Assembly (NCBI GenBank): GCA_030426085.1
Contig: JAUHYW010000088.1
Span: 1 to 37,285 of the forward strand
Direction: 5' to 3'
Origin: a bacterium
Lineage (GTDB): Bacteria; Myxococcota_A; Bradymonadia; UBA7976; UBA1532
Length of the DNA stretch: 37,285 bases
The stretch's first letter is position 1, and every line of letters begins with the position of its first letter. Below the pieces are notes generated by a model, which saw only the letters and a program-made list of their open reading frames with translations, was not told where the DNA came from and searched no databases. The translations under genes and the position numbers were made by a program. Below are positions 23,976 to 37,234 of this stretch, piece by piece.

Positions 23976-24165
23976 GCCGGACGGGGTAAAGCCTCACTCA
24001 CGGCAGACCGGATACGGGCGTCGCCCCTGCTCCACCCCAGCGAGCGGCGGGGTGTGACCCTCGATGTCTCCGGCGCAGGGCACCCCGACAGTGACAGTGA
24101 CCCGCCCCACCCCGGGCGGACTCGGCCGGCGCTCTATCACGCTCATTACAGACCCTGCCTGCGCC

Positions 24166-24195
24166 TTGACTCGCGGCCGGAGCGATGCCTACGCT
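24166..24195 (+). promoter_or_regulatory. Candidate sigma-70 promoter for the subtilase
   Basis: TTGACT (24166-24171) and TACGCT (24190-24195) with an 18-nt spacer. The -35 box matches five of six consensus bases and the -10 box three, acceptable for a GC-rich myxobacterial sigma-A promoter. Transcription would begin about 25 nt before ATG 24228. Confidence 0.4.
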
Positions 24196-24227
24196 GCCGG
24201 AGCACTCATGGACGACCGAGGCATGAC

Positions 24228-25934
24228 ATGGCCCGCAAACCCCTCGCGCTCACGCTCGGCATCTCCGCCCTCGCGCTGCTGTGGCTCACCCGGGCTGGGG
24301 CTCCGATCCAGGTGGGCGAAGGCAGCGGCCCGGCCGCCGCCCGCTCGGCCCCGGGCACGCTGGTCCTCGACCTGCGGGACGACCTCGACGATGGCGCCCT
24401 GGCCGCCTTCGAAGAGCGCCACGGCCTGAAGCTCGAGCTGTCGGCAGCTGCCTCCCGGGACGAGGCGCTCTTCCGGGCCGAGGTCGCCGACATGGCCGCG
24501 ACCGCCCGGCGGCTGGCGGGTGACGCCGACGTCGAGGTGGTCGAGCCGGTGGTCGAGATGCAGGCGCTGGGCTACCCCGACGATCCCCTGTGGGACGCGC
24601 AGTGGAACATGCGCCAGATCGGCGCCCCCGCGGGCTGGTCCGCCGGGGCCGGGCGGGGGGTGACCGTGGCCGTGCTCGACACCGGCATCACCCCGGTGGC
24701 CGACCTGGACGGCATCGCGATGGCCGAGGGCCACGCCTTCGTGCCCGGGGTCGAGTCCGCGCTGGACGATCACGGACACGGGACGCACGTCGCCGGGACC
24801 ATCGCTCAGGCGACCCACAACGGCGAGGGCGTGGCCGGGGTCGCCCCGGGGGTCACGCTGGTGCCGTACAAGGTGCTGTCGGCCCACGGCGGCGGATCGT
24901 CCGATCGCATCGCCGCGGCCATCGACCACGCGGTCGACGCGGGGGTCGATGTCATCAACATGAGCCTCGGCGGCCCGCCCTCGGCCGTGTTGACCAAGGC
25001 CGCCGACGCCGCCGCCGAGGCGGGGGTGCTGGTGGTGGCCGCCGCCGGCAACTCGGGCCGCCGGGGCCTGGGATCGCCGGCCGACGGCAAGCTCGTCATC
25101 GCGGTGGGCGCGACCGGGCCGAAGGGCGACAAGGCGCCCTATTCGACCTACGGCGTGGGCGTCGAGATCGCCGCCCCGGGGGGCGACACGACAGTCGAGG
25201 GCGGCGGCATCCTGCAAGACACCGTCGATCGCGACGCGGGCCACGCCTTCAAGGCGTTCCAGGGCACCTCGATGGCGACCCCGCACGTCAGCGGCGCCCT
25301 GGCGGTCCTGCTCGGCATGGGGGTGGCGCCCGGCGCGGCGGTGGACGTGCTCTTCCGCACCGCGGTCGACGTCGGCGGCGACGGCTTCGACGAGATCTAC
25401 GGCCACGGGCGCATCGACCTCGGCGCCGCGGTGAGCGCGGTCGTCTGGCGTGATCGCCTGCCCCGGTTCGCCGCGGCGGCCCTGCTGGCCACGGCGCTGG
25501 GCCTGTTGATGGGCTTCGGCCCCGGCCGACGGATCCTCATGGCCGGCGTGGCCGCCTGGGCCGCCGGCGGGCTCTTCTTCCTGGCGTGGCTGCCCATCTC
25601 GCCCGGCGGCGGGCTGGCGTGGCTGGCGATGGATCCCATGCGCTGGCTCGGCGCGTGGATGGGGCCCGGATGGACCCACTCAGCGTGGGTCGCCGCGGCG
25701 TGGGTCCCGCTGCTGGTGACTTTCTTCTTCGGCCTCAACCGCAAGCTGGCCCCGTGGGTCGGCGGCTTCGCGCTCGGCTGCGGGGTGAACCTGCTCTCGG
25801 GCGGCCTCGACGGCACGCTGGCCCCCCTCGGCGGCGGGGGCTGGGCCGGCCCGTGGCTGCTGGGGCACGCGGCGCTGTGCCTGATGGCGGCGGTCGCGGT
25901 CGGCGCGGCCCTGAAGATGGAGTACTCGGCGTGA
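24228..25934 (+). CDS. Membrane-anchored subtilisin-like serine protease
   Basis: A 568-residue S8 peptidase. A signal-like helix is at 5-22. A ~90-residue prodomain (residues about 40-115) precedes the catalytic domain, with Asp151 in VAVLDTGI, His184 in HGHGTHVAGT, oxyanion Asn275 in AAAGNSG and Ser348 in GTSMATPHVSG. All catalytic residues are present. After about 430 come several hydrophobic segments (FAAAALLATALGLLMGF and others up to about 560), giving perhaps five membrane helices. The active site would face the periplasm. Cleavage of an envelope protein or processing of exported proteins is likely; substrate unknown. GAGG precedes ATG 24228. The last codons overlap the small downstream gene. 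The polytopic C-terminal domain is not typical for secreted subtilases. Confidence 0.88.
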   Translation: MARKPLALTLGISALALLWLTRAGAPIQVGEGSGPAAARSAPGTLVLDLRDDLDDGALAAFEERHGLKLELSAAASRDEALFRAEVADMAATARRLAGDADVEVVEPVVEMQALGYPDDPLWDAQWNMRQIGAPAGWSAGAGRGVTVAVLDTGITPVADLDGIAMAEGHAFVPGVESALDDHGHGTHVAGTIAQATHNGEGVAGVAPGVTLVPYKVLSAHGGGSSDRIAAAIDHAVDAGVDVINMSLGGPPSAVLTKAADAAAEAGVLVVAAAGNSGRRGLGSPADGKLVIAVGATGPKGDKAPYSTYGVGVEIAAPGGDTTVEGGGILQDTVDRDAGHAFKAFQGTSMATPHVSGALAVLLGMGVAPGAAVDVLFRTAVDVGGDGFDEIYGHGRIDLGAAVSAVVWRDRLPRFAAAALLATALGLLMGFGPGRRILMAGVAAWAAGGLFFLAWLPISPGGGLAWLAMDPMRWLGAWMGPGWTHSAWVAAAWVPLLVTFFFGLNRKLAPWVGGFALGCGVNLLSGGLDGTLAPLGGGGWAGPWLLGHAALCLMAAVAVGAALKMEYSA

Positions 25935-26325: not shown

Positions 26326-28521
26326 ATGGCATCGCCCACCCGACCGACGCAGCTCGCATCCGCCCCCCCGCTGCCTCGGCTCCTGCTGTCGCTCACCGCT
26401 CTCGTCACCCTGGCCGGCATCGTCGCGCTGGGGTGGTGGACCACGTCGACCTGGCTCACCCTGACCCGCGCCAGCGCGGACTATGTCAAGCTCCAGCAGC
26501 ACATCGGTGACATCCGACTGTACGATGAGATGCTGACCATGTCGTGTCGGATGGCGACGCTGACCGGGGACGCCTTCTGGGTCGGGCGCTACAACGACAC
26601 CGAGCCGAAGCTGAGGGGGACGCTGGAAGACGCCATCCGCCTCGCGCCGTCCTTCCGGGCGTACCTCGAAGAGACCCGGGCCGCCAACGACGAGCTGGTG
26701 CACATCGAGCGCCGCGCGCTGATGCTGGTGGATCAGGGTGCGCTCGAGCAGGCGGCGAGCCAACTCGCGGATAATCCCTACAAAAAACACAAGACAGACT
26801 ACGGCAATGGCATGACCCGCGCGCTCGGCCGCATCCACGCCGACGTCGAGCAGACCCTGGGCGAGAAGGCCCGTGTCGCCCACTTCGCCCGGGTGGTGTC
26901 GGCCGTCGTCATCCTGCTCATCATCGTCTTGTGGGCCCTGGCGTGGCGCGCGCTCAGCGGGTGGCACACAGCGACCGCCGACGCCCGGGTCCGCCTCGTG
27001 CGCCTGCACGACCGGCTCGACGACGCGGTGCTCGCCGCGCGGATGGGCGTCTTCTCCCTCGACGATCAGGGCCGCAGCGGCACGCTCTCCGATCGGGCCC
27101 GCGCGCTGCTCGGCCTCGGCCCACACTCGACGCTCTCCGAAGATGTGCTGCTCGCGCAGGCCGCCCCCACCGACCGGGAGCGGCTGCGCAGCGCCCTGCG
27201 CGAGAGCTGGCAGCCCGACGGCGCGGGCGCCAGCACCGTCGAGTTCCGGGTCGTCCACCCCGAGCGAGGCCGCCGGTGGCTGCGAGCGGCGTGGCGCGCC
27301 GACCACAACGGGCGTCCGGGGCGGGTGCTGCACGGGGTGCTTCAGGACATCGACGACCAGAAGCGGCTGACCGCGGCCCTGTCCGACCGGGCCGAGGCCC
27401 ACGGGCGGCTGGCCGAAGAGCGGCTGGCCCACTCGCAGGCCCTCGTGCGCGACATGCAGCAGATCGAGACCCACGAGCGCCTGCGGCTGGCCCACATCCT
27501 CCACTGCGACTTGCAGCAGCTCCTCTTCTCGGCCCGCATGCTCGCCGCCACCGAGCGGGACCGCCACCAGGGCGACCGCAGCCGGCTGAAGTCCATCGTG
27601 GATACGCTCGACGAGGCGATCGCCGCCACCCGGGGGCTCACCGCCCGCATCGCCCCGGCCCCGATCGAGGATCTGGGGCTCGGCGGCGCCCTCACCGCCC
27701 TGGCCGAGCTGGTCGACCAGCGCTTCGAGCTGTCGGTCGAGCTGCGGCTGCCCCCCGACCCGCCGGCCGTGCGGGAGGATCTCGTGCGCTTCGTGCACGA
27801 TTGCGTGCAGGAGCTGCTGTTCAACGTCGTACGGCACGCCGGGGTCGACGAGGCCCGGGTCGAGGTCGAGGTGCAGCGCGGCGATCTGATCGCCCGGGTG
27901 GTCGACGATGGGCACGGCTTCGACGCTGGGCGCCGGCGGGCCACCCCGGGGCGGGGCTTCGGGCTCGACGGCCTGAAGCGGCAGGCGGCAGCGTTCTCCG
28001 GTGGGCTGACGATCGAGGCCCGCCCGGGCGAGGGCACCCGGGCCGAGCTGCGGGTGCCGCTGAAGCCGGCCAGCGCGCGGCCCCTGCCCGTCTCCGAGCC
28101 CCGCTCGATCGAGGGCGTCACCCGCATCGTGCACGTCGAGGACAACGCCGCCATGCGCAGCCTCGTGGCCGACGCCATCGCGCGCGAGGCCGATCTGCTG
28201 CTCGTCGCCCAGGGCGAGAGCGGCCCCGAGGGGGTCGCGCTGGCGCTGGACCACCGACCGGATGTCGTGCTGATGGACTACGTCTTCTCGTGGGGCTACG
28301 ACGGCGCCGAGGCCTGCCGCCGCATCCGCGCCGCGCTGCCCGAGACCCGGGTCGTCGCGCTCGCCGGGCTGGCCCGCGATCGGGATCGCATCGCGCTGCA
28401 CGAGGCCGGGGCGGAGGCGGTGGTCTCGAAGCAGACGTCGTTCACCGTGCTGTTCGACGTCGTGCGCCGGGCCCGCCCCGCTGGATCGGGCGACGCCCGG
28501 CAGGCGCCGCCCGATGCTTGA
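26326..28521 (+). CDS. Hybrid sensor histidine kinase (HisKA_3 type) with receiver domain
   Basis: A 731-residue membrane sensor kinase with CGGAGG 5 nt before ATG 26326. Two membrane helices (about 17-38 and 188-208) flank a ~150-residue helical periplasmic sensor domain. A PAS-like domain lies at about 228-347. The phosphorylated His393 sits in ERLRLAHILHCDLQQLL, the NarX/DesK-type H-box; the usual 'HDD' is 'HCD'. The ATPase domain has the N-box QELLFNVVRHA (Asn500), G1 VVDDGHGFD and G2 GFGLDGLKRQA. A receiver domain follows (about 599-715: Glu605/Asp606, phosphoacceptor Asp651 in VVLMDYVFSW, Lys702). It precedes two Amt transporters and a NarL-type regulator, so ammonium or nitrogen status is the natural input by location. 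That is inference; the enzyme class is certain. Confidence 0.9.
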   Translation: MASPTRPTQLASAPPLPRLLLSLTALVTLAGIVALGWWTTSTWLTLTRASADYVKLQQHIGDIRLYDEMLTMSCRMATLTGDAFWVGRYNDTEPKLRGTLEDAIRLAPSFRAYLEETRAANDELVHIERRALMLVDQGALEQAASQLADNPYKKHKTDYGNGMTRALGRIHADVEQTLGEKARVAHFARVVSAVVILLIIVLWALAWRALSGWHTATADARVRLVRLHDRLDDAVLAARMGVFSLDDQGRSGTLSDRARALLGLGPHSTLSEDVLLAQAAPTDRERLRSALRESWQPDGAGASTVEFRVVHPERGRRWLRAAWRADHNGRPGRVLHGVLQDIDDQKRLTAALSDRAEAHGRLAEERLAHSQALVRDMQQIETHERLRLAHILHCDLQQLLFSARMLAATERDRHQGDRSRLKSIVDTLDEAIAATRGLTARIAPAPIEDLGLGGALTALAELVDQRFELSVELRLPPDPPAVREDLVRFVHDCVQELLFNVVRHAGVDEARVEVEVQRGDLIARVVDDGHGFDAGRRRATPGRGFGLDGLKRQAAAFSGGLTIEARPGEGTRAELRVPLKPASARPLPVSEPRSIEGVTRIVHVEDNAAMRSLVADAIAREADLLLVAQGESGPEGVALALDHRPDVVLMDYVFSWGYDGAEACRRIRAALPETRVVALAGLARDRDRIALHEAGAEAVVSKQTSFTVLFDVVRRARPAGSGDARQAPPDA

Positions 28522-28534
28522 GGTCAGCCCCGCC

Positions 28535-28551
28535 CGCCCCCGCCGGGGGCG
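28535..28551. terminator. Hairpin between convergent kinase and Amt genes
   Basis: CGCCCCC (28535-28541) and GGGGGCG (28545-28551) form a 7-bp stem with a 3-nt loop in the 31-bp gap between the two stops. It is a good candidate for a two-way terminator; there is no T-tract. Confidence 0.5.
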
Positions 28552-28552
28552 C

Positions 28553-29887
28553 TCAATCGCCGTTGGCCGGCAGGTCGAAGTCGTAGCCCTGCGCGCCGTG
28601 CAGGCTGACGTCGAGCCCGGCGCGCTCCTGGGCCTCGGTGACCCGCAGCCCGATGGTCTTGTCGAGGATGGTCGCCAGCACCCACGTCGCGCCGAAGGCG
28701 TAGGCCGCGGTGGCCAGGACGCCGACGAGCTGGTTGACGATGAGCCGCGCCGCGCCGCCCTCGAGCACGCCCGCGGTGCCGCCCACCGCCGCGGCGGCGA
28801 AGAGGCCGGTGGCCAGCGCCCCCCACGCCCCGCCGACCCCGTGCAGGCCGAAGGCGTCGAGCGAGTCGTCGTAGCCGAAGCGCCGCTTGAGCAGGCAGCC
28901 CCCGTAGCATGCCACGCCGGCCCCGAAGCCGATGACGAGCGCGCCGGACAAGCCGACGAAGCCGCAGGCGGGGGTGATGCCGACCAGCCCGGCGACCGCG
29001 CCCGAGGCCGCCCCGAGCACCGTCACCTGCCGGGTGTGGGCCCACTCGACGATGATCCAGGCCACCGCGGCGCAGGCGGCGGCGACGTGGGTCACCAGGA
29101 ACGCGTGGGCCGCGGTCGAGTCGGCGGCGAGCGCGCTGCCCGCGTTGAAGCCGAACCAGCCGAACCACAGCATGCCCGCCCCCAGGATGGTGAAGCCCAG
29201 GTTGTTGGGCCGGGGGTCGACGTCCAGCGAGCGCTTGCCGAGCACGATGGCCACCGCCAGCCCGGCCACGCCGGAGCTGATGTGCACCACCGTGCCGCCG
29301 GCGAAGTCGAGGGCGTGCCAGGCGCTGTCGGCCCCGAGCCACCCGCCCGGCCCCCACACCCAGTGGCAGATGGGATCGTAGACCACCGTGGTCCACAGCA
29401 GGGTGAACAGCACGTACGCCTTGAACTTCATGCGCTCGGCGAAGGCCCCGCTGATGATGGCCGGGGTGATGATGGCGAACATGAGCTGGAAGACGGCGAA
29501 CGTGCTGTGGGGGATGCCCAGGCCGTCCATGACGGTCGAGTCGACGCCGTCGAACCTGGCGTGGGCGAAGCCACCGATGAAGCCGTTGCCCTCGCTGAAG
29601 GCCAGCGAGTAGCCGACCAGGACCCATTGCACGGTCACCAGCCCGATGCACAGGAAGCTGTGCATGAGGGTCGAGAGCACGTTCTTGGCCCGGACCATGC
29701 CCCCGTAGAACAAGGCGAGGCCGGGGGTCATCAGCAGCACCATGGCGGCGGATGCCATCACCCAGGCGGTGTCGGCGGCCGACAGGGCCGAAGCGGCGGC
29801 GGCCTCCTGGGCGTGGGCCGGCCCGGCGGCGAGCAGCGCGGCGCCTGCGGCGAGGCGGCCCGGCCATGAGAAGAGCGTTCGAGACAT
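28553..29887 (-). CDS. amtB: Ammonium transporter, Amt/MEP family
   Basis: A 444-residue Amt channel. A cleavable signal peptide ends near AGPAHA-QE (residue 26), as in AmtB of enteric bacteria, and eleven membrane helices follow. Conserved pore residues are visible: the binding-site Asp and first twin-His in DFAGGTVVHIS, the pore Phe in WFGFNAGS, and the second His in FGLHGVGG. The Phe gate is in FQLMFAIITPAIISGAF. The short C-terminal tail (LRVTEAQERAGLDVSLHG) is the cytoplasmic GlnK-contact region. It takes up ammonium at low external levels. No glnK (PII) gene is next to it, unlike the classical glnK-amtB pair. The gene is divergent from the response regulator and convergent with the kinase. 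CGGAGG precedes ATG 29887. Confidence 0.93.
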   Translation of the reverse strand: MSRTLFSWPGRLAAGAALLAAGPAHAQEAAAASALSAADTAWVMASAAMVLLMTPGLALFYGGMVRAKNVLSTLMHSFLCIGLVTVQWVLVGYSLAFSEGNGFIGGFAHARFDGVDSTVMDGLGIPHSTFAVFQLMFAIITPAIISGAFAERMKFKAYVLFTLLWTTVVYDPICHWVWGPGGWLGADSAWHALDFAGGTVVHISSGVAGLAVAIVLGKRSLDVDPRPNNLGFTILGAGMLWFGWFGFNAGSALAADSTAAHAFLVTHVAAACAAVAWIIVEWAHTRQVTVLGAASGAVAGLVGITPACGFVGLSGALVIGFGAGVACYGGCLLKRRFGYDDSLDAFGLHGVGGAWGALATGLFAAAAVGGTAGVLEGGAARLIVNQLVGVLATAAYAFGATWVLATILDKTIGLRVTEAQERAGLDVSLHGAQGYDFDLPANGD

Positions 29888-30005
29888 CGGGGTTCCTCCG
29901 GGGGTGGCGTGGCTCGGTCGGCGCCGAAGATGGCGCGGGTCGCGATGAGTGGACGCCGCGCCTCCAGCCCGGTGCGCGGCGGGGCACGCCGCGGGGGCAG
30001 CGCGC

Positions 30006-30042
30006 GATCGGGCTGATCCTAGCGAGAGGCCGCGGCCCGATC
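30006..30042. repeat. Inverted repeat in divergent Amt/regulator gap
   Basis: GATCGGGC (30006-30013) and GCCCGATC (30035-30042) are a perfect 8-bp inverted repeat with a 21-nt spacer, in the 232-nt space between the starts of amtB and the response regulator. It could be an operator or a hairpin. A second small palindrome TGGCG-N5-CGCCA lies at 30045-30059. No sigma-54 or good sigma-70 promoter is visible here. Confidence 0.35.
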
Positions 30043-30119
30043 TGTGGCGCCGATCGCCAGGGGGGGGTGAAAATCGGGGAACCGGTGGCCGGGCGGGTCA
30101 CCGGGCGAGGGAGGATGCC

Positions 30120-31178
30120 ATGAAGCAGGCACCGATGGGGCCCGAGTGTCGGGTCATGCTGGTCGACGATCACTGGTTCGTGCGCGAGGCGTTCGGCCGC
30201 ATGCTCGACGCCCGCCCCGACATGCGGGTGGTCGCCACCGCCGCCAGCCGGGCCGAGGCCCTCGGCCGGGCCGTCGACGCCGACCCCGACGTGGCGCTGC
30301 TCGACCTGGGGTTGCCCGACGGCAACGGCGTCGATCTGGCGGCGGCGCTGAAGCAGCGCATCCCGCTGGTGCGATGCGTGCTCTTCTCGGCGCACGACAC
30401 CACCGCCATCGCCGGCTGGGCCCGCGGCGGCGCGGTCGACGGGATCATCGGCAAGGACGCCGAGCCGGAGGACGTGCACCGGCACCTCATCCGTATCTGG
30501 CGGCGCCCCCGGGCCCACCGGCCGCTCGTCGGGGCGCCGGTCCCCCACCCGCTCGGCCGGCTGAGCGCGCGGGAACATCAGGTCTTCTTCGAGCTGGGCC
30601 GCGGCCGCACGACGAAGGAGATCGCCGCCGACTTCCGCCTCTCGTCGAGCACGATCGACAAGTACAAGCAAGCCATCCGGGACAAGTTCGCCCTGGGTGA
30701 TCACGACAAGCTCCTGCGGCTCGCGGCGCTGATCTGGCAGCAACGCCCGACCGCCCCCGACGAGCGGCGCGCCGAGCGGGCCCTGGTCGCGGCGTTCGAG
30801 GCGCGGGCGATCGCCCCCGACGGGTGGACCCACCGGGCCTGGCTGTGGGTCGCCTTCCACCGGGTCCTCACCCGACCGCTCGACGAGGCCGCGATCCACC
30901 TGGCCCACGGGGTCGACCGGCTCGCGCGGACCCACGGCACGCCGCCCCCGCCCCGGGTGGCCGTGACCCGAGCCGCCGCCGCGGTGCACGCCCGGCTCGC
31001 CGCCGATCCGGTCCACCTGACCGCTCAGGGGTTCCTCGCAGCGCACCCCGATCTGCTCGGCGCCGATCCCGAGCGGCTGGCCTTCACCGACCCCCCGCCG
31101 TCGGCGCGGGCGGGGGCCCGCGGTGGCTCGACCGACGACCGGGCCATGCCATCGGCCGGTGACAGAGACGCGGCCTGA
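30120..31178 (+). CDS. NarL-type response regulator with extra C-terminal domain
   Basis: A 352-residue regulator with GAGGGAGG before ATG 30120. The receiver domain (residues about 10-128) has Asp16/Asp17, phosphoacceptor Asp62 in LLDLGLPDGNG and Lys112. A LuxR/NarL helix-turn-helix follows (about 145-203: GRLSAREHQVFFELGRGRTT, then EIAADFRLSSSTIDKYK). Normal family members end here at 210-220 residues. This one adds ~140 residues; the part at about 215-325 (WTHRAWLWVAFHRVL, later GVDRLARTHG and FLAAHPDLL) resembles an uncharacterised stand-alone protein family with the 'FtHr.HlrvA...l' motif. It would be activated by a kinase of the HisKA_3 type, such as the hybrid kinase 1.6 kb away. The Amt genes on both sides are likely targets. 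The added domain may sense a ligand; that is speculation. Confidence 0.85.
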   Translation: MKQAPMGPECRVMLVDDHWFVREAFGRMLDARPDMRVVATAASRAEALGRAVDADPDVALLDLGLPDGNGVDLAAALKQRIPLVRCVLFSAHDTTAIAGWARGGAVDGIIGKDAEPEDVHRHLIRIWRRPRAHRPLVGAPVPHPLGRLSAREHQVFFELGRGRTTKEIAADFRLSSSTIDKYKQAIRDKFALGDHDKLLRLAALIWQQRPTAPDERRAERALVAAFEARAIAPDGWTHRAWLWVAFHRVLTRPLDEAAIHLAHGVDRLARTHGTPPPPRVAVTRAAAAVHARLAADPVHLTAQGFLAAHPDLLGADPERLAFTDPPPSARAGARGGSTDDRAMPSAGDRDAA

Positions 31179-31186
31179 GACAGCCG

Positions 31187-31195
31187 TGATATAGT
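31187..31195 (+). promoter_or_regulatory. Extended -10 promoter candidate for second Amt
   Basis: TGATATAGT contains an extended -10 motif (TGn directly before TATAGT, five of six consensus bases). It lies 9 nt after the regulator stop and would initiate near 31202. It sits inside an imperfect inverted repeat CAGCCGT (31181-31187) / ACGGCAG (31202-31208), which could be an operator. Confidence 0.42.
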
Positions 31196-31245
31196 GCTGT
31201 AACGGCAGTGAGGTGGCCCGCTTGCTAGGCTGACGGTGACTCGGA

Positions 31246-31270
31246 CGATGTGATGCCGATGGCCACATCG
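31246..31270. repeat. Inverted repeat upstream of second Amt, possible operator
   Basis: CGATGTG (31246-31252) and CACATCG (31264-31270) form a perfect 7-bp inverted repeat with an 11-nt spacer, between the candidate promoter and the start of the Amt fusion gene. A binding site for the neighbouring NarL-type regulator or a leader hairpin are both possible. The rest of 31179-31391 shows nothing further. Confidence 0.38.
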
Positions 31271-31391
31271 ACGACGCCTGCCCGGCCAGCACTCACGGGT
31301 TCGGATCCCAGCGCGCCACACCGCGCGCCGGATCGGATCAGCCGGGCGACACCATGCCAGCGGACCGCGCCGGCGACGAGGGGGGGATCCG

Positions 31392-31540
31392 ATGACAGGG
31401 AAGACATCGTCGGGGCGCGCGCGCCTGATTCGGGGCTGTTTCTGCTCACGCTGTCGGCGATGGCATGCGCCGTGACATCGCCGAGCCGGGCGGACCCCGG
31501 GCTGCCCCGCGCGATGCACCTCGATGCGCCCGACGCGCCC
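31392..31540 (+). other. Probable displaced 5' end and signal peptide of the second Amt
   Basis: ATG 31392 follows a strong GGGGGG ribosome binding site, but its frame stops at 31473-31475. The next frame, open across this region, encodes a signal-peptide-like segment, SGLFLLTLSAMACAV then TSPSRA. The Amt body is in the same frame as ATG 31392. Removing one GC unit of the (GC)5 tract (31415-31424) and one C of the C9 tract (31538-31546) would join start, signal peptide and Amt in one frame. This may be a sequencing error, a mutation, or a slippage switch. Confidence 0.45.
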
Positions 31541-33548
31541 CCCCCCGCTCGTCGTCGCCCAGGCCCAGCCGGGCCACCCGGCTCGCGCGCCCTCTGCGAC
31601 CGGCTCGCCCGCTGCGACCAGCTCCCCCGCCGCGCCGCCCGCGGCCGCAGCCCCCGGGCGATCCGACCCCTACCCCAATACGACCTGGCTGCTCCTCTGC
31701 GCGGCGCTCGTCTTCTCGATGCAGCTCGGCTTCGCGCTGCTCGAGGCGGGCCTCGTCGAGACCAAGAACGCGGTCAGCGTGCTGTACAAGAACACGATGG
31801 ATCTGTGCATCGGGCTGCTCGGCTTCGCGGTGATCGGCTTCCCGTTGATGACCGGCAACACCCGGGCGCTCTTCGACGTCTTCGATCCGGTCTTCGTGCC
31901 CCCTGACGAGGTCGCCCACGCTGATCCCCTGGCCTACTTCCTGTTCCACGCCGCGTTCGCCGCGACCACGGCCACCATCTGCTCGGGGGCGCTCGCCGGC
32001 CGCATCCGGCTGCGGCCGTACATGGCGCTGAGTTTCTTGATCACCTCGGTGATCTACCCGCTCGTGGCCCGGGTCGCCTGGGTCGACGCCCACCTGCCCC
32101 TGCTCGGCGGCGGGGGCGCCTTCGAGGTGTACGACTTCGCCGGGGGCGTGGTGGTGCACGGCGTGGGCGGCATGGCCGCGCTGGGCGCGACGCTGGCCCT
32201 CGGGCGGCGCAAGAACCCCAACTTCACCGCCCACAACGTGCCCCTGGCCACCGCGGGCATGTTCATCCTCTTCCTGGGCTGGTTCGGCTTCAACATGGGC
32301 AGCGTCACCGCCGGCGAGGTCTCCGACCCCGTCTTCTCGTCGGCCGTGGCCCTCGTGGGCACCAACACCGCGCTGGCGGCGGCCTCGGCCGGGCTGGCGT
32401 CCTACCTGGTGGGCACCCTCTTCATGCGCCTGCCCCAGCTCTCGATGAACCTCAACGGCGTGCTGGCGGGGCTGGTGATCATCACCCCCACCGCGCCGCT
32501 CTTCCCCCCGCTGGCGGCGCTGGCCCTCGGCTTCGGCGCCGGCTCGCTGGTGGCGGTCTACGGCGGGTGGCAGGCCCGACGCAGCGCGACCGGCAGCCGC
32601 ATCGACGACCCGGTGGGTGCCATCCCGGTGCATGGTTTCTGTGGCATGCTGGGCGGGTGCCTGGTCGTCTTCGGGCGCTTCGATCTGGCCGCCGACGAGG
32701 GGCACGCGCTGGCGGCCGACGACGTGGCGGCCCAGCTCATCTTCGCGCTCCTGCTGCCGCTGGTGGCCGCGGGGCTGGTGTGGCTGCTGTTCAAGGTCGC
32801 GGCCCAGTTGGGGGTGCGGCTGAGGGTCAAAGCCGAGGCCGAGGACCGGGGGCTCGACCTGGACGAGCACGGCGAGCGGGCCTACGAACTGCACCTCGCC
32901 CCGCCCAGCGTGCACGACTTCAAGGCGGCCATCCAACACAGCCTCCAGGCGCTGAAGAGCTTCGACTACGTCAACGCCGCGGCCTTCCTGGGGCGCACGG
33001 CGAGCAGCCGGGGCGAGGAGGTCGCCGGCGAGCTGCGCCATCAGGCCCCGTTCCGCACCGACTTCGCGATGTGGGTCACCCGGGCCCAGCGGGAGATCGA
33101 CGCGTGCGTCGACTTCATCGGCGACGCCGAGTTCAGGGGCAACAACCTGCGCAGCCTGCAAGCGGACTTCGACACCGCCCTGCGGGAGCTGGCGACCTAC
33201 CCGGTCGAGCCGGCCGGCGCCCGGCGGCAGGCCTACTTCGAGGAGAAGAAGCGGGCGCTCGATCAGGCCCTGACCCGCATGCTCGAGACGCTCGATCGCT
33301 ATCGCCGGTGGATCAAGCAGAACGAGGATCTGCTGGGCCGCCTCGAGGCCCTCGAGGGGCAGCACCGCAGCCTACAGCTCCGGCTCGAGCAGCCCCCCCG
33401 GGCGACGAGCGAGGGCGACGACACCGGGCACCTGCGCAGCCGGCTCGAAGAGGCCGAGCGCCAGAACCGGGAGTCCGGCGCCCGCGTCGCCGAGTTCGAG
33501 CGCCGGCTGAGGGTGCTCCAAGGCATGGTGGACGATCTCCAGAGCTGA
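31524..33548 (+). CDS. Ammonium transporter fused to cytoplasmic coiled-coil domain
   Basis: A 674-residue protein from ATG 31524; this start has no ribosome binding site and the true one may be 31392 (see the displaced 5' end entry). After a Pro/Ala-rich segment the Amt channel begins at TTWLLLCAALVFSMQLGFAL. The conserved Asp and first His are in YDFAGGVVVHGVGG, the pore Phe in WFGFNMGS, and the second His in IPVHGFCGMLGG, so the pore residues are intact. The channel ends near residue 440. The remaining ~230 residues form a cytoplasmic domain of helices (SVHDFKAAIQHSLQALKSFD and onward) ending in a coiled coil (RLEEAERQNRESGARVAEFE). Amt channels with signalling C-termini act as ammonium sensors in some bacteria. 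With a kinase and regulator adjacent, a sensing role is plausible but unproven. Confidence 0.88.
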   Translation: MRPTRPPPLVVAQAQPGHPARAPSATGSPAATSSPAAPPAAAAPGRSDPYPNTTWLLLCAALVFSMQLGFALLEAGLVETKNAVSVLYKNTMDLCIGLLGFAVIGFPLMTGNTRALFDVFDPVFVPPDEVAHADPLAYFLFHAAFAATTATICSGALAGRIRLRPYMALSFLITSVIYPLVARVAWVDAHLPLLGGGGAFEVYDFAGGVVVHGVGGMAALGATLALGRRKNPNFTAHNVPLATAGMFILFLGWFGFNMGSVTAGEVSDPVFSSAVALVGTNTALAAASAGLASYLVGTLFMRLPQLSMNLNGVLAGLVIITPTAPLFPPLAALALGFGAGSLVAVYGGWQARRSATGSRIDDPVGAIPVHGFCGMLGGCLVVFGRFDLAADEGHALAADDVAAQLIFALLLPLVAAGLVWLLFKVAAQLGVRLRVKAEAEDRGLDLDEHGERAYELHLAPPSVHDFKAAIQHSLQALKSFDYVNAAAFLGRTASSRGEEVAGELRHQAPFRTDFAMWVTRAQREIDACVDFIGDAEFRGNNLRSLQADFDTALRELATYPVEPAGARRQAYFEEKKRALDQALTRMLETLDRYRRWIKQNEDLLGRLEALEGQHRSLQLRLEQPPRATSEGDDTGHLRSRLEEAERQNRESGARVAEFERRLRVLQGMVDDLQS

Positions 33549-33612: not shown

Positions 33613-35175
33613 ATGCACGTCTCGCCGCCCATCGTCACCGCCGAGGACGCCCGCCGCTGCGCGCTCGAGCTGGGGTATCGCCCGTTCGTGCTGCGCCCCG
33701 TCGCCTGGCTGGTCTCGATCATCGACGGCGATCCCGAGCGGGCCGGCATCGGCGCGGTGCGCCCCCGCACCCGGCTGAGGCTGGACGGGGTGCCGGTCGA
33801 CTTCGAGCGCCGCGCCGACGGCTGGCTGACGGCGTCGCTGCCGGCCGATCGCCGACCCCACGCCCGGCTGAACGACGGCCCCCTGCCCGCCCCCACCCTC
33901 GTCCTGCGGGGCTGGGACGTCCTGCGGATCGGGCAGGACTCGGTCGTCGTCTGCGCCTACCTGCTGCGGGCGACGACCCCGATCGAGGGCTACGAGCCCG
34001 ACGCCATCCGGCGGATCGTATCCTGCGCGGCGGCCGGCCTGCCGGCGACGTTCGAGCGCAGCGACTCGAGCCTCATCCTGCTGCCGCCCGAAGGCACCCC
34101 GCCCGAGGCCGCCGGCACCGACCGGGCCCGGCTGCACGAGGGCCGGGCGGACGCGGCGCCGACCAGCGGCGTCGGCTTCGTCGCGTTCGAGCGCGATCGC
34201 CGCGCCCGCTATCGGATCGTCTCGCCGCCGGGGGCCTTCGCGCCGGCGGGGCTGGAGCGCGTCGTCGACGCCCGGGACGACGCCCGGCGCCAGGAGACCG
34301 ATCTCGAGCGGCGCTGCGCCATGCTCGACGCCCGCCGGGAGCAGCTCGAGCACGACCGGCGGGCGCTCAAGAAGGCCCGGGCCGAGCTGGCCAGCGACAC
34401 GCTCGCGCTGCACCGGCAGCAAGGCGAGGTCGAGGCCCGGGGCCGCAAGGTCGAGGCGGCCCGCCGCACCCTCGAGGCCCGCCGCCGGGAGTGGTTGCAG
34501 CCCCTGCCGATGGGCGCGCGGCGGGTGCTGGTGCTGGTCGACCCGGCGCTGCCGTGGCAGCCGTCGATGTCCCACGAAGGCCAGAACCTCGACCTGCGCC
34601 TGCCCTGCTTCGCCTTCGGCGACGGCCGCTCGACGGTGCGCTACCTGTCCCACCGCCCGGCGGAGTCGCTGCCGTGGCGGCTCGTGCGGGCGGCGGGGCG
34701 GGCCACCGAGCTCATCCTGCGAGCGAAGCCCGATCTGGTCATCTCCCTCGGGCCGGCGGCGGCGGTGGGCCCGGCGACCTTCGACGTGGCCATCCCCCGC
34801 GCGGTGTACGAGTACCCGGCCCCCGGCGAGTCGATGCAGCCCCGCCAGCTCGAAGGCATGGACGCCACGCTGATCGATCGGGTGCACCGCCACCTGAACA
34901 ACCGGGCCCGCGCCATCGCGCTCGGCTGCGCCGACACCGTCGTCCCCGAGACGCCACAGCACACCGACCTGCCGCCCGACGAGCCGCCGGTGGAGGCGTT
35001 CGACTGCACGGCGGCGGGCATCATCGAGGCCACCCGCGAGCTGGACGTGCCCTACGCGCTGCTGATCCGCTTCATCGACGAGCTGGACGGCAACGGCGGG
35101 CCGGAGATCTGCGCGGCGGTGTTCGAGGCCGTCCTCGACGCCGTCGCGGTGCACTTCAACCAGAGCGGGGGCTGA
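33613..35175 (+). CDS. FHA-like / coiled-coil / nucleoside-phosphorylase-like protein
   Basis: A 520-residue soluble protein with GAGGAG before the ATG. Residues about 42-118 (IGAVRPRTRLRLDG, later ARLNDGPL and GWDVLRIGQDSVVV) follow a beta-sandwich pattern like an FHA domain, though the core Arg/Ser/Asn residues are not convincingly present. A coiled coil spans about 212-296. Residues about 301-517 resemble the nucleoside phosphorylase/MTA-nucleosidase fold: LILRAKPDLVISLGPAAAVG parallels the 'P.viintGsag.l' strand, and EAFDCTAAGIIEATREL and YALLIRFIDELDG parallel the 'ME.aA' and 'vR.iSD' blocks, with Asp489-Glu490 where the family has Ser-Asp. Activity is uncertain. The gene overlaps the convergent TIR-kinase gene by 20 bp. 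A phosphopeptide-reading, nucleotide-handling partner of that kinase is my inference. Confidence 0.6.
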   Translation: MHVSPPIVTAEDARRCALELGYRPFVLRPVAWLVSIIDGDPERAGIGAVRPRTRLRLDGVPVDFERRADGWLTASLPADRRPHARLNDGPLPAPTLVLRGWDVLRIGQDSVVVCAYLLRATTPIEGYEPDAIRRIVSCAAAGLPATFERSDSSLILLPPEGTPPEAAGTDRARLHEGRADAAPTSGVGFVAFERDRRARYRIVSPPGAFAPAGLERVVDARDDARRQETDLERRCAMLDARREQLEHDRRALKKARAELASDTLALHRQQGEVEARGRKVEAARRTLEARRREWLQPLPMGARRVLVLVDPALPWQPSMSHEGQNLDLRLPCFAFGDGRSTVRYLSHRPAESLPWRLVRAAGRATELILRAKPDLVISLGPAAAVGPATFDVAIPRAVYEYPAPGESMQPRQLEGMDATLIDRVHRHLNNRARAIALGCADTVVPETPQHTDLPPDEPPVEAFDCTAAGIIEATRELDVPYALLIRFIDELDGNGGPEICAAVFEAVLDAVAVHFNQSGG

Positions 35176-37234
35176 GCGGCTCGTCCTCGGGCACGACCCG
35201 GCGCACCACCCGCAGGCCGACATCGGCGTAGCGGGCGCCGCCGTAGCGATCGGGGCGCCGGGCGCGGGTCCGGGGGCCGGTGCACAGGCGCCGACGGGGG
35301 AAGGGATCGCTGCCGGGCGCCGCGTCGGCCGCCCAGGCGGCGAGCGGCGCGTCCAGATCGGCCAGCCACGGGCGATGGGGCGGATCGACCGCGGACAGCG
35401 ACACGACCACGCTCTGCCACTCGGCCGCGGTGGGCATGCGATAGCCGTCGGCCTCGGGATCCACCGTCGGCTCGCCCGCCTCGAGGCCCGGGTACGCCGG
35501 TCGGCGCCGCTCGAGCTCGGAGAGATCGTTGCAGTAGCGCGCCGCCTCCCACCATGAGACCCGGACCAGCGGCCGGTTGCCCGGCCCTCGTCGGACCCGG
35601 CCCGTCTCGCGGCCGAGCGCGTGGGCCACACTCTCGAAGTGATGCGCCGAGACCATCCGGGTGGCCACCAGCAGCCGCGCAGAGGCCCGCACCAGCGCCG
35701 GGCGCAGGTTCGAGGGCACCCAGGCGAGCATGCGGGGCCGATCGACGCTCGACGACCGCACCGCCCGGCGCAGCTCGGCCCGGAACCCCTCGACCGTCTC
35801 GAAGCGCGCGGTGGGATCGAAGCGGGTGGCCCGGCGGATGACCTCCCGCAGCGGGTCGCAGCACGGCAGCGTATCGATCTGATCGTCGATGGAGCCATGC
35901 ACGGCCAGGAACCGCCCGCTCAAGGCATAGGCGGTGACTTTACCCAAGCTGTAGACATCGGCCCGAGGCAGGTTGCGTCCGTCGTCGTCGCTGGGGCTGT
36001 GGGCGTCGACCCGCAGCGCCGGGATGTCCTGCCCGGTGTCGATCAGCTCGGGCGCCGCGAACTGGAGCGTGCCCAGGCCGCCCTTGGTGTTGCCGGTCGT
36101 ATCGGGGGCCCAGATGAGATCGAAGTCGGTCAGCCGGGCCCGGCCGTCCGATCCCAGCAGGATGTTCTCCGGCTTCACGTCGCGGTGCACCCACTTGCGG
36201 GCGTGGGTCGCCTCGAGGGCCTCGGCCACGTCGAAGACCGCGTCGAGGCTGCGGGCGACCGAGATCTGCGCCGAGCGCACCGCCCGCCGCAGATCGCCGC
36301 CGGTCAGGTACTCCATCGCGAAGAAGGCCTGCCGCTCGTGCCGCTCGACGTCGGTGAGCACGTCGACGATGCCCGGGTGCCCGATCTCGCGCATGCGCCG
36401 CGCGCCGCGGATGAAGCGATCGATGGATCCCATCTTCGAGGCGTGCAGCACTTTGACCGCGACGGTGCGATCGGTCGACTCGTCCAGCGCGCGCCAGACC
36501 TCGCCGAAGCCGCCCTCCCCCACGAACTCGAGCAGCCGGAAGCGCTCGGCGAGCACCGCGTGCTGCCGGGGCCGATCGAGCATGCGCAGGTTGCGCTTGA
36601 CCGCCCGCAGATCGCGCTCGAGCGCCTCGATCCGGGCGTCGGGCACCCCGTTCGCGTCGAGCTCGTGGCGCCGCTGGAGCCGCAGGTCGTCGATGGCCCG
36701 CTGCAGCCGGGCCCGCTCGAAGTCTCCCACCGCCGCCTGGAGCTGGGCGGCGAGCGCGGCCACCCCCTGGTCGCGCAGGGTGATGCTGACGACCCGGTGC
36801 AGCCCGAACGGCACCGGCCCGTCGTCGGGGCCGGCCCCGCCGATGAAGACCGGCACGATGCGGTGCCCGTCCGCCCGGTTCTCGTTGCGCTGGATGGCCC
36901 GGGCGATGGTCTCCCGGCTCTGCCAGTCGGGCTCGTCGGGCGAGATCAGGACGACGGTGATCGCCGCCGAGTCGAGCGCGGCGATCGAGCGGGCGTAGCG
37001 GTCGGTCCCCGGCACGAGGTCGCCCGAGGTGACCGCTCGGTAATACCGCGAGAGCTGCCCCTTGAGCTGCTGCGCGACGCGCCGCTCGTAGCTCGACGCG
37101 GTGGAGTAGGCGATGAAGAACAGCGGCAGCCCCGCCGGCTTCGAGGCCGCGGGGCGGGCGTACGCCGCCGGGCGCCCGGGGCGGGTCTCGCGTGCCCGGC
37201 GGGGGCGGCCGGCGGCTGGGTCGGTCGATGTCAT
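35156..37234 (-). CDS. TIR - Ser/Thr protein kinase - FGE-like fusion protein
   Basis: A 692-residue protein with three domains. TIR (about 37-165): LPLFFIAYSTASSYERRVA, then ITVVLISPDEPDWQSRETIA, where Glu108 (W-x-x-x-E) is at the NADase catalytic position. A helical linker follows. Protein kinase (about 230-490): GEGGFGEVW loop, Lys261 in VAVKVL, HRDVKPEN (Asp352 catalytic), Asp370 in DFD instead of DFG, and AAPE. FGE-sulfatase-like domain (about 515-685): RPLVRVSWWEAARYCNDLS, GYRMPTAAEWQ and VGLRVVRRV; it is short and lacks the GNVWEW block, so it is more likely a binding module than an active formylglycine-generating enzyme. No membrane helix. The C-terminus overlaps the FHA/PNP-like gene tail to tail. 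An immune or conflict role is known for TIR effectors; here it is inferred. Confidence 0.88.
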   Translation of the reverse strand: MTSTDPAAGRPRRARETRPGRPAAYARPAASKPAGLPLFFIAYSTASSYERRVAQQLKGQLSRYYRAVTSGDLVPGTDRYARSIAALDSAAITVVLISPDEPDWQSRETIARAIQRNENRADGHRIVPVFIGGAGPDDGPVPFGLHRVVSITLRDQGVAALAAQLQAAVGDFERARLQRAIDDLRLQRRHELDANGVPDARIEALERDLRAVKRNLRMLDRPRQHAVLAERFRLLEFVGEGGFGEVWRALDESTDRTVAVKVLHASKMGSIDRFIRGARRMREIGHPGIVDVLTDVERHERQAFFAMEYLTGGDLRRAVRSAQISVARSLDAVFDVAEALEATHARKWVHRDVKPENILLGSDGRARLTDFDLIWAPDTTGNTKGGLGTLQFAAPELIDTGQDIPALRVDAHSPSDDDGRNLPRADVYSLGKVTAYALSGRFLAVHGSIDDQIDTLPCCDPLREVIRRATRFDPTARFETVEGFRAELRRAVRSSSVDRPRMLAWVPSNLRPALVRASARLLVATRMVSAHHFESVAHALGRETGRVRRGPGNRPLVRVSWWEAARYCNDLSELERRRPAYPGLEAGEPTVDPEADGYRMPTAAEWQSVVVSLSAVDPPHRPWLADLDAPLAAWAADAAPGSDPFPRRRLCTGPRTRARRPDRYGGARYADVGLRVVRRVVPEDEPLSPRSG

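Follow-up and report, generated by a model that had tools for sequence, protein, structure and literature searches.

Amt channels are normally tied to nitrogen control by P-II proteins, and little is settled about the regulation of ammonium uptake in bacteria that lack them. The locus described here poses this question in a concrete form: what do a kinase and a response regulator do when they are encoded among two Amt genes with no glnK at the locus? The window (i.e. the whole stretch of DNA that was analysed) is an entire contig, C24, of 37,285 nucleotides, from a genome of 10.1 Mb that is distributed over 178 contigs and is 95% complete. An earlier note on this DNA had described a hybrid kinase, a regulator and two Amt proteins as interleaved between positions 26326 and 33548; its coordinates hold and agree with the Pfam domains, the gene order being HK (forward), AmtA (reverse), RR (forward) and AmtB (forward) (Table 1). 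All four genes lie in high-GC3 reading frames, RR as part of a longer ORF.

Table 1. Genes and gene segments of the ammonium locus, with positions in the window.
Feature	Position	Strand	Basis
HK, hybrid histidine kinase, 731 aa	26326..28521	+	Pfam; two TM segments
HK sensor domain, residues about 40-185	26443..26880	+	Identity, alignment, AF2 model, fold match
HK H-box, H393-C394-D395-L-Q-Q398	27502..27519	+	Alignment with HK2, L075 and L077
HK C-terminal receiver	28120..28473	+	Pfam PF00072; alignment with HK2
AmtA, transporter-type ammonium channel, 444 aa	28553..29887	-	PF00909, E 2.7e-122
RR, receiver + LuxR/GerE HTH + C-terminal WTH domain, 352 aa	30120..31178	+	Pfam; ATG at 30120
RR tail, eroded copy of uncharacterised helical domain	30777..31064	+	40% to RR2 tail
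AmtB, 674 aa: candidate sensor-type Amt (residues 52-456), then helical tail of 216 aa	31524..33548	+	PF00909, E 8.8e-82
AmtB Ks-Amt5-type site codons Q67, E74, N90, D93, T151, S154	31722..31985	+	Alignment to Ks-Amt5; PMC5764959
AmtB cytosolic helical/coiled-coil tail	32898..33545	+	Pfam search; comparison with Amts of the order

AmtA and RR are transcribed divergently from a 230-bp gap, while HK and AmtA are convergent; as AmtA lies on the opposite strand, the four genes do not form one operon. Upstream of HK, a forward gene (24054-25934) encodes a subtilisin-like S8 protease with membrane segments at its C-terminus. Sixty-four bp 3' of AmtB and on the same strand, an ORF (33613-35175) that could share the AmtB transcript has a coiled coil in its middle and a weak C-terminal match to the PNP/UDP phosphorylase superfamily. 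Convergent with this ORF, a reverse-strand gene (35156-37234) combines a TIR domain, a Ser/Thr kinase and an FGE-sulfatase-like domain in a single protein, which suggests a role in conflict or signalling.

The absence of glnK from the locus, as reported in the earlier note, was found to extend well beyond it: P-II gave no match in the whole genome, whereas the same search was positive in 13 of 14 control genomes. P-II was likewise undetected in genome G006 of the same genus and in G001 and G002 of the same family, with one P-II in G004. Furthermore, it was undetected in all five genomes that carry the regulatory module described below, each of them an incomplete MAG, while the two module-free genomes that were searched alongside possess P-II. 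Since one in two Amt-bearing genomes of this class has no P-II anyway, five out of five is only moderately unlikely, and the tie between presence of the module and absence of P-II is no more than suggestive.

The module itself was recognised from the closest relatives of HK and RR in the same genome. Both are encoded on contig C73, namely HK2 (E 1.5e-54, 33% identity over residues 11-705 of HK) and RR2 (E 3.6e-41), where they flank glutamine synthetase II (GSII), the third and last Amt gene of the genome and a glutaminase with an EF-hand and ankyrin repeats. The catalytic motifs of this sister locus are intact. The window copy, in turn, lacks GSII and glutaminase. G015 (VGTA01000232), from a different family within the order, carries HK, RR, GSII, Amt and glutaminase in that sequence, and when named genomes with GSII were scanned, further loci emerged: L074 (two RR genes, glutaminase, Amt, GSII, the tail domain as a gene of its own and a HisKA_3 kinase whose sensor is of the PilJ type), L076 (glutaminase, RR, GSII, Amt) and L077 (glutaminase, RR, GSII, HK). 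Such a neighbourhood with nitrogen genes recurs in L074, L075, L076 and L077; HK and/or RR genes stand beside GSII, Amt or glutaminase in four other myxobacterial MAGs. The supposition that kinase and regulator belong together, and in nitrogen assimilation, is thus borne out by the paralogues on C73 and by the recurrence of the pairs, and a test of conservation in related genomes, which had been proposed, gave a divided answer: the linkage of HK/RR to nitrogen genes is conserved, while the exact four-gene locus was seen once, because the same-genus genome G006 lacks any Amt.

A more stringent view was obtained from 377 Myxococcota genomes, among which only the HKs of the window, C73 and G015 matched both the sensor and the core profile, and all three adjoin an Amt gene. 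It could be argued that the four genes are adjacent by chance, given a kinase-rich genome (116 first-look candidates) and a mixed orientation that precludes a single operon. However, the best paralogues of both HK and RR lie about 3 kb or less from the one further Amt locus in a 10 Mb genome, and the same linkage is seen again in other families; chance adjacency is largely refuted and we consider it very improbable. Judged from these gene neighbourhoods, the grouping of HK/RR with Amt genes is not accidental. An HK-RR-Amt arrangement in G002 (C166) was rejected as a member of the same family, its kinase being a soluble PAS-HisKA_3 protein; as this kinase lacks the sensor, the arrangement was counted only as Amt-linked.

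Other Amts of the class likewise have signalling genes next to them (set L050, L053, L055, L056, L040, L042, L048): NifA-like activators with GAF/AAA+ domains and, for G001 and G002, a membrane-bound class III nucleotide cyclase. Directly upstream of GSII, Candidatus Uabimicrobium has a gene for a LuxR-type response regulator (L089:8994-10000). With respect to regulatory DNA, no operator motif stood out as common to the promoters of the window and those at C73 or the other loci. In two related MAGs, the otherwise poorly conserved gap between RR and GSII contains a 16-bp block, ATCAGGAAGTTCCCCA, which is perfectly conserved, has an imperfect inverted partner after it (L076:5730-5775 and L077:2617-2660) and constitutes a candidate RR operator.

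HK is composed of a first membrane segment (residues 19-37), a periplasmic four-helix sensor, a second membrane segment (residues 187-205), PAS_3, a HisKA_3-like DHp, HATPase_c and a receiver, of which HATPase, PAS_3 and the receiver exceed the Pfam cut-offs. As to the earlier assignment to the HisKA_3 type, the core can be aligned with MctS/UhpB-type kinases and the C73 paralogue matches the family, but the window HK itself has no formal match to Pfam HisKA_3. The sensor contains conserved DE-LTMS and W..RY motifs and shares 29-37% identity with those of HK2 and the L075 and L077 kinases, with no such relationship in the shuffle control. In the case of the L077 kinase, the sensor (37% identical) is better conserved than the kinase core (32%), the shuffle control falling far below. 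Sequence searches found no solved relative of the sensor; an AF2 model built from three sequences predicts a four-helix bundle (pLDDT 83), the best fold match of which is the sensor of Rhodopseudomonas palustris HK9 (Foldseek TM 0.86 on the target; 3va9, VIA Z 16.7 over 124 residues at 1.7 A), a protein whose function has been described as unknown (PMC3831638).

Close behind HK9 in the fold comparison are the ligand-binding domains of Tar, Tsr, PcaY, MCP2201 and Vc1313, which bind amino acids and aromatic or organic acids. This resemblance raises an alternative, in which HK and RR control nitrogen genes but read a periplasmic amino or organic acid (e.g. glutamine, glutamate or a peptide breakdown product), AmtB being unrelated to the kinase. 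The conserved neighbours GSII and glutaminase, both enzymes of glutamine metabolism, point in the same direction. Conversely, every strict full-length member of the HK family in the phylum scan adjoins an Amt, and helical bundles match widely, so no ligand was deduced for the HK sensor from its fold. We regard this alternative as rather unlikely, although the modelled Tar/HK9-like sensor may serve a ligand other than ammonium. Of the earlier proposal of an ammonium-linked two-component system, the link to nitrogen genes is supported, whereas the ammonium part rests on AmtB and not on the sensor of the kinase.

RR exceeds the Pfam cut-offs for Response_reg (PF00072) and GerE (PF00196) and retains D62, S90 and K112 in its receiver. 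Its pairing with a HisKA_3 kinase had been put forward as a natural fit for a NarL-type regulator; the paired paralogues speak for the two belonging together, but the presumed phosphorylation of RR by HK is weakened by the H-box of the window HK, which reads H-C-D-L-Q-Q in place of H-D-x-L-Q. In this motif, the acid that follows the phospho-acceptor H393 is replaced by Cys, with an Asp at H+2 and Gln398 kept; the relatives have HDGLQQ (HK2), HDELQP (L075) and HDDLQQ (L077). The phosphatase activity of NarX requires its DxxxQ residues, and HisKA kinases depend on the acid adjoining the His for their kinase activity (PMC3510030). Additionally, the HK receiver has D651, while its conserved Thr/Ser position is occupied by Ala (Thr in HK2), and the tail of RR no longer has YHET and YS.ERL, two of the three motifs (WTH..HL, YHET and YS.ERL) that intact copies of this domain display. 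The lack of the H+1 acid, of the receiver Thr/Ser and of an intact RR tail together imply that the window copy may be partly inactive. Taken further, these features, the NarX and HisKA precedents and the mere 33% identity of HK to the C73 copy would fit a decaying duplicate, with an HK that is kinase-poor or phosphatase-only, an uncontrolled RR and little role in ammonium. Against this stand intact ORFs of 731 and 352 codons, the presence of the ATP-site motifs of HK and of D, S and K in the RR receiver, and the Asp at H+2, and outright decay appears improbable to us.

The tail of RR belongs to a domain of about 130 residues (WTH..HL, GYHET, YS.ERL, PDL.PLP) without a Pfam family (L154-L180, L074:7943-8401, L037:6267-6686). 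The domain is mostly stand-alone, and ORFs of L161, L166 and L180 look like acetyltransferase fusions; within its class, fusion to RR is confined to two loci, those of HK/RR and Amt in this genome. In L074 the domain has a gene to itself, located between GSII and HK, and in the present genome it is fused to RR, which amounts to a fusion link. Searches for a solved relative returned none (best phmmer E 0.035), and an AF2 model from two sequences was discarded as too poor for use (pLDDT 44).

The two Amt proteins had been called different, and they are so by sequence, AmtA being of the transporter type and AmtB nearest to the Ks-Amt5 type. The closest solved structures of AmtA are Af-Amt1 and E. 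coli AmtB, and it is 70% identical to the Amt of C73. AmtB is closest to Ks-Amt5 (6eu6; E 1.8e-51 in a reverse search), followed by 8qj3; that AmtB, unlike AmtA, is nearest to ammonium-sensor Amts is, on these alignments, new here. The NH4+ site of Ks-Amt5 comprises Q24, E31, N47, D50, T51, T109 and T112 (PMC5764959). Six of these seven positions, including both acids, are kept in AmtB (five identical, T112 as Ser), the counterpart of T51 being L94, so that the site reads Q, E, N, D, L, T, S in AmtB and Q, E, N, D, F, T, S in 8qj3. None of the 22 other Amts compared from these genomes has this set of six residues, nor does any of them have Q24 or D50. The 216-residue, charged tail of AmtB has no Pfam family above cut-off and no histidine kinase domain, and no other Amt of the order was found to carry a tail of this type.

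These features are open to a second explanation, namely that AmtB is simply a long-tailed uptake Amt of the ordinary marine type, the sensor-site residues being due to chance or ancestry. In the tree, a group with 100/100 support unites AmtB with Ks-Amt5, 8qj3 and the NifA-linked Amts and excludes the AmtA type, but AmtB sits on a very long branch and the tree does not settle which member is its sister; a clade of AmtB with the two sensors was not rejected (p-AU 0.28), and a position as sister to Ks-Amt5 was neither supported nor rejected. The NifA-linked Amts of the class, moreover, share E31, N47, T109 and S112 with AmtB. The pore residues W144, F103, F223, S227 and both His are kept, which fits transport, and of the positions that block Ks-Amt5, F27 is Phe while Y30 and F34 are Leu, so transport by AmtB is still possible. 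On the other hand, Ks-Amt5 has the same pore residues and yet does not transport (PMC5764959), and Q24 and D50 occur only in AmtB, Ks-Amt5 and 8qj3 among the 27 rows of the alignment, where PDB entries are represented by aligned search stretches. An ordinary uptake function is accordingly a possibility of some weight, and one that we hold to be more probable than the other alternatives while doubting it.

The locus is best read as a divergent copy of a two-component module for nitrogen that is independent of P-II and may be paired with an Amt that senses ammonium. The wider claim, that this is the second copy of a module which replaces P-II-based nitrogen control in the lineage, we judge to be evenly balanced. 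In the proposed mechanism, the membrane-bound HK would perceive a nitrogen-related signal through its periplasmic four-helix sensor and pass it, by presumed phosphotransfer, to the NarL-type RR. RR would then regulate amt genes at the window, as the sister pair would regulate glnII-amt-glsA at C73, with the divergent promoters between these genes as putative targets. AmtA would act as the uptake channel, and AmtB, as a sensor-type Amt, would most likely report external ammonium via its cytosolic helical tail. A bolder form of this mechanism, in which AmtB binds NH4+ at the Ks-Amt5-type site and its tail signals in trans to HK and RR through some putative contact with the kinase, seems unlikely. 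If true, it would amount to a split receptor, with the sensing Amt, the kinase and the regulator each encoded on its own at a single locus that substitutes for P-II control. In any case, the locus and its relatives provide a concrete candidate, a HisKA_3-like kinase and a NarL-type regulator whose genes are linked with amt, glnII and glsA in myxobacteria that lack P-II; C73, with its intact catalytic motifs, is the better starting locus.

No published P-II-free, Amt/GSII-linked NarL-type system was found in the open-access literature searched, which is not proof of absence, and the known systems resemble the locus in part. As in the AmtB-GlnK pairs of E. coli and relatives, AmtA is of the transporter type with conserved pore and C-terminal helix motif, whereas this genome lacks a P-II match. 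GrtK-GrtR of Burkholderia glumae, a two-component system and not an Amt, has likewise been proposed as a sensor of external ammonia; the input of GrtK is PilS-like with six TM segments, the HTH of GrtR is of the Fis type, and the system is not amt-linked and acts at high ammonia (PMC12918730), whereas the window HK has two TM segments and RR a GerE HTH. With NarX/NarQ-NarL and MctS-MctR, the window pair shares the kinase core, the RR architecture and the periplasmic four-helix sensor fold, but it differs in the missing H+1 acid, the extra PAS and receiver of HK, the extra RR tail and the nitrogen-assimilation neighbourhood. AmtB resembles 8qj3/8qpf (deposited in the PDB as 'Ammonium transporter', 644-661 residues with a C-terminal extension), which has the same six site residues and departs from Ks-Amt5 at the same two places. 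Finally, like Ks-Amt5, the ammonium sensor histidine kinase of Candidatus Kuenenia stuttgartiensis (PMC5764959, 6eu6), AmtB has the six retained site positions described above, no glnK neighbour and a cytosolic C-terminal extension; it differs in T51, and in that Ks-Amt5 carries its kinase fused to the Amt, whereas the extension of AmtB is helical and kinase-free and the window HK is a separate two-TM protein with another DHp type. For Ks-Amt5 no response regulator was named, while here a sensor-type Amt adjoins both a kinase and a regulator, an arrangement in which signalling by an Amt can be tested directly.
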